Under the pieces are notes generated by a model. That model did no database searches and was not told where the DNA came from. It saw nothing but the letters and a program-made list of their open reading frames with translations. From Candidatus Woesearchaeota archaeon CG10_big_fil_rev_8_21_14_0_10_37_12 (GTDB lineage: Archaea > Nanobdellota > Nanobdellia > Woesearchaeales > ARS49), in the NCBI GenBank assembly GCA_002762795.1, contig PCYA01000008.1, forward strand, positions 1 to 64,000: a stretch of DNA of 64,000 bases. Reading direction: 5' to 3'. Shown piece after piece: positions 1 through 41,931 of this stretch. The position numbers and the translations under genes are program-made. Each line of letters starts with the position of its first letter. Position 1 is the stretch's first letter.

Positions 1-16
1 GATCTGGTATATTTCT

Positions 17-101
17 GAGCATGCTCAAGAACCACTGGTCATTACAAGCGAAGATGAAGCTATCGCTTCATGCCACCCGTCTATTGACTGGTGGTTCTTG
101 A
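17..101. repeat. Palindromic repeat, family E copy 1
   Basis: The left arm (AAGAACCACTGG near 27-38) and right arm (CTGGTGGTTCTTG near 88-100) are inverted complements. Two longer relatives lie near 10.5 kb and 39.9 kb, where the arm is also followed by ATCATGCTCGGAAT. This copy sits at the 5' end of the DUF3419-like frame and brings stop codons, so it appears inserted in that gene. Confidence 0.8.
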
Positions 102-935
102 CATTATCAAAAACTCAATATTAAATATAAAACAGTTCTTACTGTAACTGCTGCCGGAGACCACGTTATCAACGCACACTATTTCGGAGCAAAAAAAGTT
201 ATCGCCTACGACATAAATTCACTTGCAGAACACGCACTCAACTTACGACTCGCAGCACTCAAACAACTCAGCAGAAAAGACTTTTTGCATTATTATGGTA
301 CGAGAAACAACGATGTTACACTCGCTTACGCGCTTTACAAAAAAATAAGAGGACATTTAACTCACAAAACCAAAGCGTTTTTCGACGACGCTTATAAATA
401 TTTTAAAAATGACGGCAAAAAACTCGCTCGATCTGCACTCATACAACAACGAGAATTCAAAGGACAACATGTTACTGCAATCAATGCTTATCTTAAAAAT
501 GACAAAAATTACCTCAAAGCGAGAAAGATTCTCAAAAACAAAAAAATACCCTTCATACACGCTAATATTTCTGAGCTGCCAAAAAGAGTAAAACAAAAAG
601 TTGACTTTATCAATCTCTCGAACATACCAAATTGGATCATCAAAAATGATTTAAAAATCGGAAATGAACGTATAGATAATTTTTACAATCAACAATTACT
701 ACCGCTTCATAAATTGCTTAAGCCAAAAGGAATCATATTTTTTTATTTGTACACTACAAAAATGTATTATCAAAAAGATTACAAGAAGCCAAAACACAAA
801 AACAACCCTCCTCTCCTTAACCATCCTAAAATACGAAAACAATTGCTAAATAAAAAAGAATTTACCTCGAAAATAATCCGCTTTAAAGGCCTTTGCCCAG
901 GAGATGATAAGATCGTCTGTTTGCAAGAAAGATAA
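102..935 (+). pseudogene. DUF3419/BtaA-like SAM-dependent transferase, 5' end interrupted
   Basis: The open frame runs from just after the TGA at 99-101 to 935, with no convincing start codon before residue 60. Early residues read LTVTAAGDHVINAH, then VIAYDINSLAEHAL and a RLAALKQLSRKDF stretch. This resembles the nucleotide-binding start of the DUF3419 family, which includes BtaA, a 3-amino-3-carboxypropyl transferase of betaine-lipid synthesis. Upstream, 1-15 reads DLVYF in another frame before repeat E1 begins. The expected N-terminal stretch is therefore split by the palindrome and out of frame. A TTG at 285 could start a shortened product lacking the SAM motif. Substrate is not inferable. 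Family call about 65% sure; disruption more certain. Confidence 0.6.
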
Positions 936-4286: not shown

Positions 4287-4412
4287 AAGGGAACTTTGAA
4301 AAAATATTGTAATTGAGTCAAAGTTCCCTAAGCCAACTTTGAATATCGACGACAAAAATAATAAGGCGTTCACGCCAATCACCAAAAACAGACTAATTCA
4401 AAGTTGCCTTAA
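4287..4412. repeat. Palindromic repeat, family B copy 1 (no hairpin array)
   Basis: The first hairpin pairs GGGAACTTTGA with TCAAAGTTCCC. The second pairs an AGCCAACTTTGAAT arm with ATTCAAAGTTGCCT. Two relatives (5519-5747 and 27057-27234) share the layout but carry extra small hairpins inserted after the CCAAC/GGCAAC of the second hairpin. This copy gives the uninterrupted form. Confidence 0.85.
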
Positions 4413-4738: not shown

Positions 4739-4832
4739 GTATGCTTGACCTTTAAAAAAAGAGAAAGAAAAAGCTCCTTCTGTGTTAACGTTACCAATTC
4801 CTGTCGAGTTTATTGATTAAAGTCTTGCATTA

Positions 4833-4949
4833 AAATAAAAATCCCAATCACCGCAAGCGGTGGGGTATTTTTAAAGTTATGATACCCATTGATCTTAAGA
4901 AAAACAAGGACGAACCCAACCGCCCCAAGGAGCGGGGTATCATAACAAA
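4833..4949. repeat. Two-hairpin repeat, family C copy 1 (no array)
   Basis: The first hairpin has an inner CCGCAAGCGG stem followed by TGGGGTATTTTT. The second pairs GTTATGATACCC with GGGGTATCATAAC around a CCGCCCCAAGGAGCGG loop stem. Copy 2 at 29.3 kb is nearly the same but has about 130 extra bases of serial hairpins between the two halves. The right end of C1 supplies the stop codon of the leftward gene ending at 4940. Confidence 0.85.
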
Positions 4950-5518: not shown

Positions 5519-5747
5519 AAGGAAACTTTGAATAATTATAAAGATCGAGTCAAAGTTTCCTAAGGCAACACTAAAAAATCCAAAGGATTTTTGGTGCAAG
5601 GAAACCACAGCGGTTTCCTGCACACAAAATTGAAAATTTTGTTGTGCCCAGAAAATCACAGATTTTCTTGGGTTTTGAATATCGACGATAAAATTGAGAG
5701 GCTTTTAACGCCAAACACCAAATAAGTGATTTATTCAAAATTGCCTG
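5519..5747. repeat. Family B copy 2 carrying a four-hairpin array
   Basis: The outer layout equals B1, but about 105 bases are inserted between GGCAAC and TTTTGAATATCGAC. The insert holds four short palindromes in series with cores AAAAAATCC/GGATTTTT, AGGAAACC/GGTTTCCT, ACAAAATT/AATTTTGT and AGAAAATC/GATTTTCT. Neighbours share junctions such as GTGC and GCAC. The last two units recur in the unrelated repeat C2. Confidence 0.85.
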
Positions 5748-5763
5748 AACATATTACCGCAAC

Positions 5764-10078: not shown

Positions 10079-10141
10079 TTTGAATCCTCCATAAAGTTTG
10101 ATATTATATGCTTTTCTATTGAGTTAACACGATCTGTAACA

Positions 10142-10267
10142 TAAAGAAAAACGCACTATTCCCCGACCTGAAGGTCGGGGTATTTTATCGTGCGTTTTTC
10201 TACTTGCAAAGTTCGCCCTGAAGGGCGGGGTTTTAAACCCCCATGCAAAGTCCTGCGAACTTTGCAA
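10142..10267. repeat. Two-hairpin repeat, family A copy 1 (shortest form)
   Basis: Hairpin 1 pairs AGAAAAACGCAC with GTGCGTTTTTCT around CCCCGACC-TGAA-GGTCGGGG-TATT. Hairpin 2 pairs TTGCAAAGTTCGC with GCGAACTTTGCAA around a GCCCTGAAGGGC inner stem. Copies A2-A4 have extra hairpins between the two halves. Lies upstream of thrS. The gene-free stretch 10079-10816 otherwise holds repeat E2 and related palindromes; no coding signal was seen in it. Confidence 0.88.
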
Positions 10268-10473
10268 TAAAACAAAAAGTAGAGACAATGAACTGCATTA
10301 TGCAGTAGTAGTGGTAGGTGTAGTAAGAATTAATGTTGATTTGGTTTTTTGTACGTTGTTTTGGTTTTTCATAGTACCACCTGAAATTGAGAAAAAGCAA
10401 GACATATATAAATTTTCCTTTCTGTACAGAGGGGAAGCACTCATCGCGCTCGAAGTGTTTCTCTTCGCCCCTC

Positions 10474-10620
10474 TTGTCAGGAACCACTGATCGCTCCTTC
10501 GTCGCTTAACACCAGTGGCATGACTGTTCAGAAAATCATAAGAAAAATATGACCAGTGGTTCCTGATCATGCTCGGAATTTCACACAATTATAAATTATT
10601 TTTGTGAAATTCCGATATGT
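10474..10620. repeat. Family E copy 2, mosaic palindrome
   Basis: AGGAACCACTG pairs with a CAGTGGTTCCT arm 80 bases on. Between them the GATCGCTCCTTCGTCGC and ACCAGTGGCATGACTGTTC blocks are shared almost unchanged with copy 3 near 39.9 kb. The arm is followed by ATCATGCTCGG and a nested CGGAATTTCAC/GTGAAATTCCG hairpin. Related palindromic DNA continues to about 10780 (GAAAGTC/GACTTTC; AGAAAACGCAAA/TTTGCGTTTTCT). Confidence 0.8.
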
Positions 10621-10816
10621 AAGAACTCCCCATTAACGAAAGTCTGGAGAGCGCAGCACTGTACTGACTTTCTATTTTTAGATGCACAGGTGAGGTGTAT
10701 AGAAAACGCAAAAGAATAATCTCACAATAGTTTGCGTTTTCTAATACGCGAGCACGCTCGCGATAAGGAGAGGGCATTGCTTAGAGTAGCGAGCCAGATA
10801 ATCCACTTCCCTCTCT

Positions 10817-27056: not shown

Positions 27057-27234
27057 ATAGGGAACTTTGAAAAACCATTGGAATTTAGTCAAAATTCCCA
27101 AGCCAACACTAAAAAACCAAGGGTTTTTGGTGCCAGAAAATCTCTGATTTTCTTGGGCTTTGAATACCGACGACAAAAATCATAGGGCGTTCACGACATT
27201 GACCAAAAAACTGATTAATTCAAAATTTCCTATA
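27057..27234. repeat. Family B copy 3 carrying a two-hairpin array
   Basis: The layout equals B1, with GGGAACTTTGA at the left and TTCAAAATTTCCTATA at the right. Two units, AAAAAACC/GGTTTTT and AGAAAATC/GATTTTCT, are inserted after GCCAAC, at the same point as in B2. Confidence 0.82.
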
Positions 27235-27946: not shown

Positions 27947-29284
27947 ATGGATATACAAATAGCAGCTGTTGGTGGCTACGGTGAAGTTGGCAGAAACATG
28001 ACTGCTGTAAAAGTCAACGATTCTGTTGTGATTTTTGACATGGGTCTGCATTTACCAAACTACATCAAACTAACAGAAGAAGAAATGGACAACACTACAA
28101 GAAACAGCATCAAAACACTACAAACAGCAAATGCAATTCCCCTTGACTACACCATAGAAGATTGGCGATCACAAGTTATTGCAATTGTTACAACACATGC
28201 GCACCTTGACCATTTAGGAGCAATACCCAGACTTGCAAAAAAATACAAAGCGCCAGTAATCTGCACACCATATTCTGCAGCACTCCTGCGCATAATTTGC
28301 AGAGATGAAAAAATAACACTGCCTAACAACATAATAGAAATGAAAGCAGGAGGAATAAAAAAACTCAACAAAGACCTAGAAATGGAATTTGTACACACAA
28401 CACACAGCACACTACAAACAATCATTGCTGTGCTTCACACTCATACAGGGTCAATCATATACGCAAACGATTACAAACTAGACAACGCACCAGTATATGG
28501 AAACCCGCCCGATTACCCACGATTAAAACAATTAGGAGATCACGGAGTTCTTGCACTTATGCAAGACTGTATTTATGCAGGAAACCCAAGAAGAACACCC
28601 CCTGAACAAGAAGCAAAAGACAAACTACGAGACATATTATTCAGAATACCAGAAAATGAAGGCATACTTGTAACAACATTTGCAAGCCACGCAGTAAGAT
28701 TAAAAACAATTACTGAATTCGGGAAAAAACTCGGCAGAAAAGTTATTTTTCTTAGTAGAAGCATGGAAAAATACGCCATGGCTGCAAAAGACGCAAAAAT
28801 TTTTGACTTAAGCCAAACAGCAGACGTTATAAAATATGCGCGAAAAATACGAAGAAAAATCGCAGACGTAATAAAAGACGGCAAACATAAATACTTACTT
28901 GTAGTATCAGGACATCAAGGAGAACCAAACAGCACCCTCAACAAAATGGTACACAACATTTACCCCTGGAACTTCAAAAATGACCATATTATTTTCTCAT
29001 CACACATCATTCCAGCAGAAATCAACAGAAAAAACAGAGCAACACTAGAACAAAACCTCAAAAAAATAGGAGCTCACATTTACACAGAAGCACACGTATC
29101 AGGACACAGCAGCAGAGAAGACATGCGAGACATTATCAACATGCTCAAACCAAAACATCTAATTCCAGCACACGGCGAAATGCACATGATGGAAGCGTTC
29201 AAAAGCTTAAGTGAAGAAATGGGATACAAAGAAGGAAAAACACTTCACCTTATCTTAAATGGAGATCGGAAAACAATTAAATAA
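27947..29284 (+). CDS. rnj: Archaeal RNase J
   Basis: About 445 residues from the ATG at 27947; the longer frame begins inside the terminator hairpin and is rejected. VTTHAHLDHLGAIPR (H84, H86, D88, H89) is the metallo-beta-lactamase zinc motif. TTHSTLQTI, NDYKLDNAPVYG, SGHQGEPNSTL and the C-terminal HVSGHSSREDM and LIPAHGEMHMM complete the beta-CASP set. A 5'-3' exoribonuclease of mRNA decay and rRNA processing. Confidence 0.95.
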   Translation: MDIQIAAVGGYGEVGRNMTAVKVNDSVVIFDMGLHLPNYIKLTEEEMDNTTRNSIKTLQTANAIPLDYTIEDWRSQVIAIVTTHAHLDHLGAIPRLAKKYKAPVICTPYSAALLRIICRDEKITLPNNIIEMKAGGIKKLNKDLEMEFVHTTHSTLQTIIAVLHTHTGSIIYANDYKLDNAPVYGNPPDYPRLKQLGDHGVLALMQDCIYAGNPRRTPPEQEAKDKLRDILFRIPENEGILVTTFASHAVRLKTITEFGKKLGRKVIFLSRSMEKYAMAAKDAKIFDLSQTADVIKYARKIRRKIADVIKDGKHKYLLVVSGHQGEPNSTLNKMVHNIYPWNFKNDHIIFSSHIIPAEINRKNRATLEQNLKKIGAHIYTEAHVSGHSSREDMRDIINMLKPKHLIPAHGEMHMMEAFKSLSEEMGYKEGKTLHLILNGDRKTIK

Positions 29285-29522
29285 AAATCCCAACCACCGC
29301 AAGCAGTAGGGTACAAGAAAATTCTTTGAATTTTCTGTACAAGAAAAGCAAAGCATTTCTGTGCAAGGAAATCATGGTAATTTCCTGCACACAAAATTGA
29401 AAATTTTGTTGTGCCCAGAAAATTTTTCAAATTTTCTCGGGTTTAAAGTTATGATACTCCATCAATTGTAAGAAAAACAAGGACGAACCCAACCGCCCCA
29501 AGGAGCGGAGTATCATAACAAA
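29281..29522. repeat. Family C copy 2 carrying a five-hairpin array
   Basis: The flanks equal C1. Between AGGGTAC and TTTAAAGTT lie five units: AGAAAATTC/GAATTTTCT, AGAAAAGC/GCATTTCT, AGGAAAT/ATTTCCT, ACAAAATT/AATTTTGT and AGAAAATT/AATTTTCT. The junctions between units are GTAC, GTGC, GCAC and GTGC. The last two units match B2 almost exactly. Confidence 0.88.
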
Positions 29523-32947: not shown

Positions 32948-33030
32948 TCAACACCTCTTTAACAACACCAAAAATCAAGGCATACCAATATATAAATGTT
33001 ACTTTTTAGTATACTGGAAAAAGTTTGAAA

Positions 33031-33311
33031 TAAAGAAAAACGCACTATTCCCCGACCTGAAGGTCAGGTATTTCGCTCAAAAAATTCAATGCATTTTTTG
33101 GCGCCATAAAATTCTTAAGAATTTTATCAGTATCGTGCGTTTTTCTACAGCGAAAAATACATTTTTCGCGTACAGAAAACCTAAAGGTTTTCTTGTACAG
33201 GAACTAAAATTCCTGATACGCAAACAACTTCGTTGTTCGCGATACTTGCAAAGTTCGCCCTAAAGGGCAGGGTTTTAAACCCCAGTGCAAAGTCCTGCGA
33301 ACTTTGCAATA
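33031..33311. repeat. Family A copy 2 with hairpin array
   Basis: The two A hairpins are present. An extra GGCGCC/AAAATTCTTAAGAATTTT pair is nested inside hairpin 1. Four short hairpins in series lie between hairpins 1 and 2: GCGAAAAAT/ATTTTTCGC, AGAAAACC/GGTTTTCT, AGGAACT/ATTCCT and AACAA-CTTCG-TTGTT. They are joined by GTAC/ATAC. The copy fills most of the gene-free stretch 32948-33373. Confidence 0.88.
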
Positions 33312-33373
33312 AGAAGTTGACATTAAAGAGAGAAAAGCCAAAAAATTAAAAGCCCATCAACCATACTGAGCAC

Positions 33374-33701: not shown

Positions 33702-33982
33702 ATAAAGAAAAACGCACTATTCCCCGACCTGAAGGCCGGAGTATTTCGCTAAAAAATTCAAGAAATTTTTGGCGCCATAAAATTCTTAAGAATTTTATTG
33801 GTATCGTGCGTTTTTCTACAGCGAAAAATACATTTTTCGCGTACAGAAAACCTTGAGGTTTTCTTGTACAGGAACTAAAGTTCCTGATACGCAAACAACT
33901 TCGTTGTTCGCGATACTTGCAAAGTTCGCCTAAAGGGCAGGGTATTAAACCCCAGTGCAAAGTCCTGCGAACTTTGCAATAA
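33702..33982. repeat. Family A copy 3 with hairpin array
   Basis: Nearly identical to copy 2, including nested and serial hairpins, and in the same orientation 671 bases away, on the other side of the DUF212 gene. Differences include compensating changes in small stems (CCTAAAGG to CCTTGAGG). Confidence 0.88.
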
Positions 33983-37038: not shown

Positions 37039-37265
37039 ATAAAGAAAAACGCACTATTCCCCGACCTGAAGGTCGGGGTATTTTATCGTGCGTTTTTCTA
37101 CAGCGAAAAATACATTTTTCGCGTACAGAAAACCTAAAGGTTTTCTTGTACAGGAACTAAAGTTCCTGATACGCAAACAACTTCGTTGTTCACGATACTT
37201 GCAAAGTTCGCCCTAAAGGGCGGGGTATTAAACCCCTCTACAAAGTTCTTGCGAACTTTGCAATA
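37039..37265. repeat. Family A copy 4, array in the spacer only
   Basis: Hairpin 1 is in the simple form (as in A1), but the four serial hairpins of A2/A3 are present between hairpins 1 and 2. It therefore differs from A1 only by the array, and from A2/A3 only by the nested insert. Confidence 0.87.
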
Positions 37266-37311
37266 ATCAAAAACAAGAAAGCCTATAAATAAAAGAAAAA
37301 TCAACAAATAC

Positions 37312-39726: not shown

Positions 39727-40014
39727 AACTCACCTGTGCTTCTAAACATTGAAAGCCAGACTATTTTGCGCTTTCTATTTTTTGGTCGATGGGGAGCTTT
39801 AAAGAGGGGCGAACAAAAACAAGGCAAGCGCAAGGAGCACGTCCCCTCTGTCAAGAACCACTGGTGATCGCTCCTTCGTCGCTCAACACCAGTGGCATGA
39901 CTGTTCAGAAAATCATAAGAAAAAATAACCAGTGGTTCTTGATCATGCTCGGAATGCCACTCGCTACAGTAAACCACTCGTGATACACACTAGTGGCATT
40001 CCGACATGTAAAGA
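39727..40014. repeat. Family E copy 3, mosaic palindrome
   Basis: The core at 39850-40010 pairs AAGAACCACTGG with CCAGTGGTTCTT. CGGAATGCCACT/AGTGGCATTCCG follows. The left flank (CACCTGTGCTTCTAAA, GGGGAG) is the inverted counterpart of the right flank of copy 2, so the element is mosaic. The remaining gene-free DNA 39499-39726 holds GAGAGGAGAC/GTCCTCTC and GCGAGGGC-type hairpins, with no coding signal. Confidence 0.8.
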
Positions 40015-41730: not shown

Positions 41731-41776
41731 ATGATGGTGCCAAGAAAAGACTGAAGAGCTTAAAATCGAGAACAAA

Positions 41777-41931
41777 TAAAGAAATTGCCTGAAAACTCGC
41801 TATCCCCGCAACAAGCTGACGGGGTATTACGCGAGTTTTCTCGGCTTCGCCGACCAGCAATTTCAGTCTTTCAAAGTTGGTGCAGATAACCGCAGCAAGC
41901 TGCGGGGTATTCGACCCAACATTTGAAATAA
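41777..41931. repeat. Two-hairpin repeat, divergent family A member (D)
   Basis: Hairpin 1 pairs GAAATTGCT-type arms, then GAAAACTCGC/GCGAGTTTTC around TATCCCCG...CGGGGTATT; TCGGCTTCGCCGA sits beside it. Hairpin 2 pairs TTTCAAAGTTGG with CCAACATTTGAAA around GCAGCAAGCTGC-GGGGTATT. Stems differ from A1-A4, but pairing and the GGGGTATT marks are kept. Confidence 0.8.

Follow-up and report, generated by a model that had tools for sequence, protein, structure and literature searches.

What are the paired hairpins that recur between the genes of this archaeal contig, and is it as DNA or as RNA that their fold matters? The window (the whole stretch analysed, 64,000 nucleotides, bases 1-64000 of contig 14) belongs to a 1.35-Mb archaeal genome that is 99% complete, and comparison of a conserved primase-like protein placed its nearest relatives among Candidatus Woesearchaeota genomes. 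A sequence-only reading of positions 41777-41931 had proposed that three repeat types, A, C and D, share one two-hairpin design with compensatory stem changes, and had attributed this covariation to selection on structure. That reading was right that the design is real and shared and that folded DNA is involved. We consider it very probable that these three repeat types belong to the IS200/IS605 group as palindrome-associated transposable elements (PATEs): non-autonomous, with the left-end (LE) and right-end (RE) hairpins retained and the transposase gene lost. PATEs were defined in Haloquadratum as transposase-free elements with IS605-like near-terminal palindromes and a conserved terminal oligonucleotide (PMC3119063). 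Observed directly were the ends of the repeats, their dispersal, the ends they have in common with autonomous IS200 elements, the covariation of their arms, the inversion of their loops and their nesting.

Genome-wide counts were based on model searches together with 458 kb of sequence, and the presence of each family was surveyed across 37 genomes. The comparison genomes belong to genera other than that of the window, and comparisons are between genera unless stated; one pair, G003 and G018, is congeneric. A further record, titled as an Omnitrophica bacterium (L246, MNVP01000015.1), carries an archaeal primase gene, has a weak match to type A and is probably a mis-binned Woesearchaeota contig.

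Architecture of the A, C and D repeats

Each repeat consists of two hairpins and, without nested insertions, measures approximately 85-170 bp, a length too small for a transposase gene; the copies are dispersed and intergenic. The C element that raised the question was mapped to 41776-41931, where it folds into two tandem hairpins as had been claimed (z = -6.95 for the DNA fold and -6.19 for the RNA fold; 0 shuffles folded equally well). It consists of ATAA, hp1, hp2 and ATAA, and its functional strand is the minus strand, on which hp2 is the LE and hp1 the RE. The first hairpin (hp1, 41781-41864, minus strand) has the outer stem GAAATTGC/GCAATTTC and the inner stem GAAAACTCGC/GCGAGTTTTC, and contains an IS200-type hairpin, CCCCGCAACAAGCTGACGGGG plus TATT (minus strand AATACCCCG...), and a side hairpin, CGGCTTCGCCG. 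The second (hp2, 41869-41928, minus strand) has the outer stem TTTCAAAGTTGG/CCAACATTTGAAA around the hairpin CCGCAGCAAGCTGCGG, GGGGTATTCGACCC (minus strand TGGGTCGAATACCCCGCAGCTTGCTGCGG).

The A and D copies of the window also lie on the minus strand. An unnested A element occupies 10141-10270, with hp1 formed by GAAAAACGCAC/GTGCGTTTTTC, hp2 by TTGCAAAGTTCGC/GCGAACTTTGCAA and ATAA at both ends. Three more A elements carry nested arrays: mini-hairpin arrays within hp1 and between hp1 and hp2 at 33030-33312, mini-hairpin arrays at 33702-33982, and, at 37039-37266, an array of four hairpins that separates hp1 from hp2. One D element lies at 4831-4949 (RE AATAAAAATCCC..CACCGCAAGCGGTGGGGTATTTTTA, LE GTTATGATACCC..GGGGTATCATAAC), and in a second, at 29276-29522, a nested hairpin array has been inserted after GGGTA. 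These arrays, present in several copies, and two further two-hairpin families of the window, B and E, had gone unmentioned in the sequence-only reading.

Two shared motifs that it had named were found throughout. Every member, said to begin near AATAAA, starts with (A)ATAAAG or AATAAAAA, and GGGGTAT, or a close variant of it, lies on the 3' side of an inner stem in all members; variants include GGGGTTTT in hp2 of the copy at 10141 and AGGTATT in hp1 of the copy at 33030. GGGGTAT is the foot of the IS200-type inner hairpin, and on the minus strand this foot reads ATACCCC. The sequence GGGGTATT occurs 8 times in the window, compared with 0.6 expected.

Beyond the window, a strict inner-hairpin pattern identified 22 sites in the genome on both strands, and the A covariance model gave 61 genome matches, a figure in which some single copies are counted on both strands. 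Homologues are present in 11 other genomes, and C-type copies lie on contigs 5, 7, 14, 17 and 19. The A and E sites are nearly all outside open reading frames of at least 120 amino acids, though such frames make up 81% of the sequence. The 458 kb contain 108 inverted repeats with arms of 11 or more and spacers no longer than 110, compared with 11-17 in Markov sequences. One C element on contig 7 (L006, position 12162, minus strand) has hp1 and hp2 fused via a deletion between two CCCCGC..GGGGTATT hairpins.

Ends in common with Y1 transposons

On the minus strand, TTAT is followed in these repeats by a TGGGTnTA-ATACCCCG-hairpin and, further on, by a second ATACCCCG-hairpin, and CTTTAT closes the element. 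The same order is seen in transposons that encode their own enzyme. The genome G003 carries two 544-bp IS200 elements, 100% identical and located at different sites, of the form TTTATTCCTTTCTGGGTTTAATACCCCGGGGCTCTGCCCCGAAAG ... Y1 gene ... GGATACCCCGGGGCTCTGCCCCGATTGGGAGCTTTATT; their parts follow as TTTATT, CCTTTCTGGGTTTAATACCCCG-hairpin, Y1 gene, GGATACCCCG-hairpin and CTTTATT. The encoded protein is an IS200/IS605 transposase by NCBIfam (NF033573, E = 2.4e-36) and matches solved transposases in the PDB, the ISHp608 transposase included. With the RAYT model it scores 19.4 against a cut-off of 80.

The correspondence extends over both ends. The A, C and L011-type (D-like) elements have the left end of the G003 element, GGGT(n)TA-ATACC(C/T)CG-hairpin, and its right end, an ATACC(C/T)CG-hairpin followed by an outer arm and TTTAT, although the D copies agree less fully than A and C. 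The GGGTnTA-ATACCCCG-hairpin LE and the ATACCCCG-hairpin RE also occur in the Y1 elements of G003, G012 and G035. Directly behind a Y1 gene of G012, a genome that also carries a C-type element, lies a hairpin whose 21 nt equal those of the inner hairpin of C hp2 without a mismatch (L328:2805-2825; E = 2e-5), and an L011-type element matches the G003 left end at 82% over 40 nt. ATAC plus a hairpin was found upstream of 5 of 15 Y1 genes, compared with 0.85% of background windows, and downstream of 6 of the 15, compared with 0.375%, two of these 15 genes being copies of one element. Matches to the A covariance model adjoin Y1 genes at L333 (E = 1e-5), L337 and L335. The outer stems of the A, C and D repeats, at 10-21 bp, are longer than those of the autonomous elements.

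The Y1_Tnp domain (PF01797) had no match in the window's own genome (99% complete) and was found in 11 of the 37 genomes, with a distribution unlike that of the A elements. The enzyme would thus have been lost, been missed or come from elsewhere, and the copies are either relics of a lost enzyme or moved by a foreign one. Supply of the Y1 transposase in trans is the weakest step in the proposed mechanism.

Target sites and boundaries

In the A copies, ATAA (minus strand TTAT) marks the exact boundary on both sides; bases further out differ and are not repeated. In the window's genome and in related genomes, ATAA flanks both sides of all A and C copies but L013, the sole exception in the window's genome, which has TTAA on both sides. 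The G003 IS200 copies are flanked by TTTATT and end in CTTTATT. With ATAA flanks this constant, a duplication of a fixed ATAA and IS200-type ends are indistinguishable without an empty site. The congeneric genomes G003 and G018 were searched for such a site and none was found, the two having diverged too far (67-77% identity in coding DNA) and their element sites being non-orthologous. In keeping with mobility, full-length identity between A copies at unrelated sites of this pair is 81-98%, compared with 67-77% for alignable coding DNA; E copies are 78-94% identical, also at unrelated sites.

The flanks admit a second explanation, that the repeats are MITEs of a cut-and-paste (DDE) transposase that duplicates a fixed ATAA target at insertion, much as E elements do. 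Flanking ATAA on both sides of the A copies would be expected of such elements, duplication is the better fit for the TTAA on both sides of L013, and the E elements of the same genome do have true 4-bp duplications that vary by site. Against this, the ends agree with those of Y1 elements in order, in foot sequence and in the terminal TTTAT; the 4 bp beside A and C copies are invariant except at L013, whereas E shows about 15 different sequences; and DDE_Tnp_1 and IS1595 transposases are absent from the genome. We therefore regard this origin as improbable. Integron attC sites were also considered and were dropped on inspection, as the repeats form no ordered cassette array and have no attC-type boxes.

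Covariation of stem arms and inversion of loops

The claim that outer stems differ while each is matched by its own complement was borne out for hp1 and hp2 of A and C; the stems vary from type to type and from genus to genus. The arms were compared directly because MAFFT, given A, C and D jointly, misaligned the stems. Among 11 A/C variants from 8 genomes, the complementarity of hp1 arms was 97.3% with their own partner and 59.8% with foreign ones, and pairwise cells held 199 double Watson-Crick changes compared with 14 one-sided changes. For hp2 the corresponding complementarities were 93.6% and 64.0%. The observed complementarity of hp1 was reached by 0 of 20000 re-pairings. In some genomes the outer arms of hp1 and hp2 are also weakly alike (CAAAAACTCGC / TTAAAAATTTCGC).

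What the covariation means is a separate matter. Between the window's genome and G012 (L214), which belongs to a different genus, C hp1 has changed on both sides at six stem positions and is inverted whole, while hp2 and the flanks are not inverted. Among 128 pairs of loops that differ within the same arms and flanks, 32 were exact reverse complements and 0 were exact reversals; the 32 represent about 11 distinct hairpins, with two symmetric cases left out. When a polymerase switches template between inverted repeats, the mark described for it is homogenised arms combined with inverted spacers (PMC8604942), and for RNA genes compensatory change together with loop inversion has been called the strongest evidence of template switching (PMC8794818). 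The step from covariation to selection "rather than simple copying" therefore does not hold: template switching, in which one arm is copied onto the other, yields the same covariation, and because spacer inversion is common here, covariation by itself is no proof of selection on structure.

Template switching might even be thought to suffice. According to this explanation, the repeats would be selfish palindromes without a transposase, with hairpins made and kept perfect solely by template switching during replication and spread by recombination. Frequent loop inversion and arm homogenisation are what it predicts, as described previously (PMC8604942, PMC8794818). However, a specific insertion process is required by the precise ends, by dispersal on both strands, by near-identical copies at non-orthologous sites and by the ends held in common with IS200 elements; we consider this explanation very improbable.

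Selection as single-stranded DNA or as RNA had been left as alternatives. The 138 distinct stems contain 1680 Watson-Crick pairs, 14 G.T, 12 A.C and 8 other mismatches, while the predicted fold of the RNase P RNA in the window has 10 G.U among 93 pairs. Selection on folded RNA should favour G.U over A.C. An Rfam search returned RNase P and tRNAs only, with no match at the A, C and D repeats. A structured RNA with a conserved fold (a riboregulator, terminator or small RNA) would account for strong folds, strong covariation and intergenic location, yet it is the least credible explanation of all, given that G.U is not in excess over A.C (14 vs 12), Rfam gives no match, loops invert freely, the repeats lie in both orientations relative to genes and many copies contain nested insertions. 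The single-stranded DNA half of the proposal, with a recombinase-like enzyme as binding partner, is the best reading, since the ends of these repeats are those of the IS200/IS605 group and the Y1 transposases of that group act on single-stranded DNA hairpins. Structure-dependent recognition of these ends as single-stranded DNA is thus likely.

A putative route of transposition

The ends of the repeats and the biochemistry of IS608 and ISDra2 are the basis for the following steps, and it is from these that we infer the transposition chemistry of the PATE-like A, C and D repeats and the supply of their enzyme in trans. On the minus strand the element would lie 3' of a TTAT (TTTAT) target, with the LE first, the RE next and CTTTAT last; the LE would be the outer stem around the TGGGTnTA-ATACCCCG-hairpin and the RE the ATACCCCG-hairpin within its outer stem. 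A Y1 (HUH) transposase supplied in trans would recognise both folded hairpins on single-stranded DNA, cut after TTAT at both ends and excise a single-stranded circle, which would be inserted 3' of another TTAT without target duplication. Recognition by the enzyme may depend less on the stem sequence than on the foot sequence and the shape of the hairpin, and stems could then drift freely while their arms match. Template switching between arms would restore matching in single steps and would invert loops too. Small two-hairpin elements would then insert into the palindromes of A, C and D, and nest.

Relation to known elements

The closest known elements are the PATEs of Haloquadratum walsbyi (PMC3119063), which resemble A, C and D in being archaeal, dispersed and transposase-free, in their IS605-type near-terminal palindromes and conserved terminal oligonucleotide, and in having smaller mobile repeats inserted in the palindromes. 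Unlike them, the A, C and D repeats occur in Woesearchaeota, measure only 85-170 bp, have long compensated outer stems that vary by type and reside in a host genome without a Y1 gene. Relative to known PATEs, the novelty is that they occur in this host group, are small, carry long compensated outer stems and are densely nested. With IS200/IS605 elements (IS608, ISDra2) the repeats have in common subterminal hairpins at both ends, an AT-rich left-flank site repeated as the right end, the lack of a variable target duplication, and Y1-bearing autonomous relatives with the same ends; they differ in lacking a transposase gene and in having hairpins inside outer stems of 10-21 bp.

REP/BIME sequences with RAYT (PMC3733652) are likewise palindromes mobilised by Y1 enzymes, but the foot of A, C and D is ATAC rather than GTAG or CGTC, and the related transposase is of the IS200 type, not a RAYT. 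The organelle double-hairpin elements, RHEs and Volvox palindromes (PMC2800124, PMC2670323) also show tandem and nested intergenic hairpins with complementary stem substitutions, whereas the repeats described here are chromosomal and archaeal, and A, C and D have an identified transposon family.

With the assignment to PATEs, much of what is repeated between the genes in an uncultured DPANN order would fall into a known transposon group, one in which the ends can vary almost freely in stem sequence while the shape is kept. Through their compensated stems and inverted loops, the many subfamilies provide a natural data set in which selection on single-stranded DNA hairpins can be told apart from template-switch copying, a question usually debated on RNA genes, and they caution that strong covariation in bacterial and archaeal repeats need not indicate a structured RNA. 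The A, C and D repeats are of interest chiefly as part of a small archaeal genome full of mutually nested hairpin elements.

Families B and E and nested hairpins

B and E are two-hairpin families unrelated to A, C and D. Family B has the layout TGTCARRAACC..GGTTCTTGA-GCATGC-TCRGAA..TTCYGACAT, with inverted ends TGTCARRAAC and TTCYGACAT, and a linker (ATG, ACA or ACG) that covaries with the right end (CAT, TGT or CGT). In the window, B elements lie at 10475-10620 (plus strand; TGTCAGGAACC..GGTTCCTGATCATGCTCGGAAT..ATTCCGATAT; a separate family), 39849-40009 (plus strand) and 7-108 (minus strand; E = 4e-15). The family is present in 25 of the 37 genomes, with about 69 matches in the window's genome and 51 in G001, and loci in other genomes include L077-L105. 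Matches to the B motif inside open reading frames were mostly short or at the edges of the frames. Fifteen of 27 pairs showed double changes, in 51 cells, and 98.8% of cells were paired; shuffles gave 15 doubly changed cells and slid controls no more than 8.

We looked for a target duplication at the flanks of B elements and saw none. Searches for the Y1_Tnp, DDE_Tnp_1, RVT_1 and IS1595 families found none in the window's genome, and the presence of these families across the 37 genomes does not track the abundance of B or E. No viral contig matched the B core or the A stem pattern exactly. B has no known transposase and is the family least explained by known systems. It might be moved by an undescribed hairpin-recognising enzyme, with the two-hairpin design of A, B, E and the mini-hairpin arrays reflecting a common dependence on folded single strands; we put this forward as a speculation that is rather unlikely to be correct. 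A single mechanism for A/C/D, B and E was set aside, as their ends show at least two (IS200-type in A, C and D; a 4-bp duplication in E).

Family E is a MITE with inverted ends GG(G/C)AACTTTGAA and a 4-bp target duplication that varies by site (TTAA, TAAA, TACA, AAAA, TTTA, CATC, TATA, TAGA, TAAC, TGAA, CAAA, TGTA, TTTG, TTCA, AATA). Each end also forms a hairpin with compensated changes (6 pairs, 11 cells). Transposase family searches of the genome did not find a matching enzyme. On the plus strand of the window, E elements lie at 4289-4408 (TTAA on both sides), at 5521-5751 with a nested four-hairpin array (TGAA) and at 27059-27232 with nested hairpins (TATA); further loci are L153-L172 and L301-L312. 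At L153 (contig 10, 30266-30604) the E flank and left end are tandemly repeated on the opposite side, which suggests recombination between E copies.

The palindromes of A, B, C and E contain short B-like and mini-hairpin units. Like SMR-A of Haloquadratum, these units have prominent inverted ends and no visible target duplication and are inserted within near-terminal palindromes of PATE or PATE-like elements (PMC3119063). Unlike SMR-A, B spans the whole order (25/37 genomes) and consists of two abutting hairpins.

Elements of all five types have hairpin arrays inserted in their loops and stems. The hairpins of these arrays measure 24-27 nt and are often linked through GTACA or GCACA, and many form two-hairpin units of about 51 nt. 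Such arrays occur in the window at 33080-33240, 37100-37200, 5560-5660 and 29310-29440, and elsewhere at L003, L016, L022 and L161-L163. A longer repeat, CAGAGGGG..CCCCTC-B-..GGTGAGGTnTATAG-hairpin-CTAATACGCGAGCAnnCTCGCGATAAGGAGAGG, contains a B element and exchangeable hairpins; it was found in the window at about 10430-10780 and also at L028:540-800, L030:17280 onward and L033:17500.
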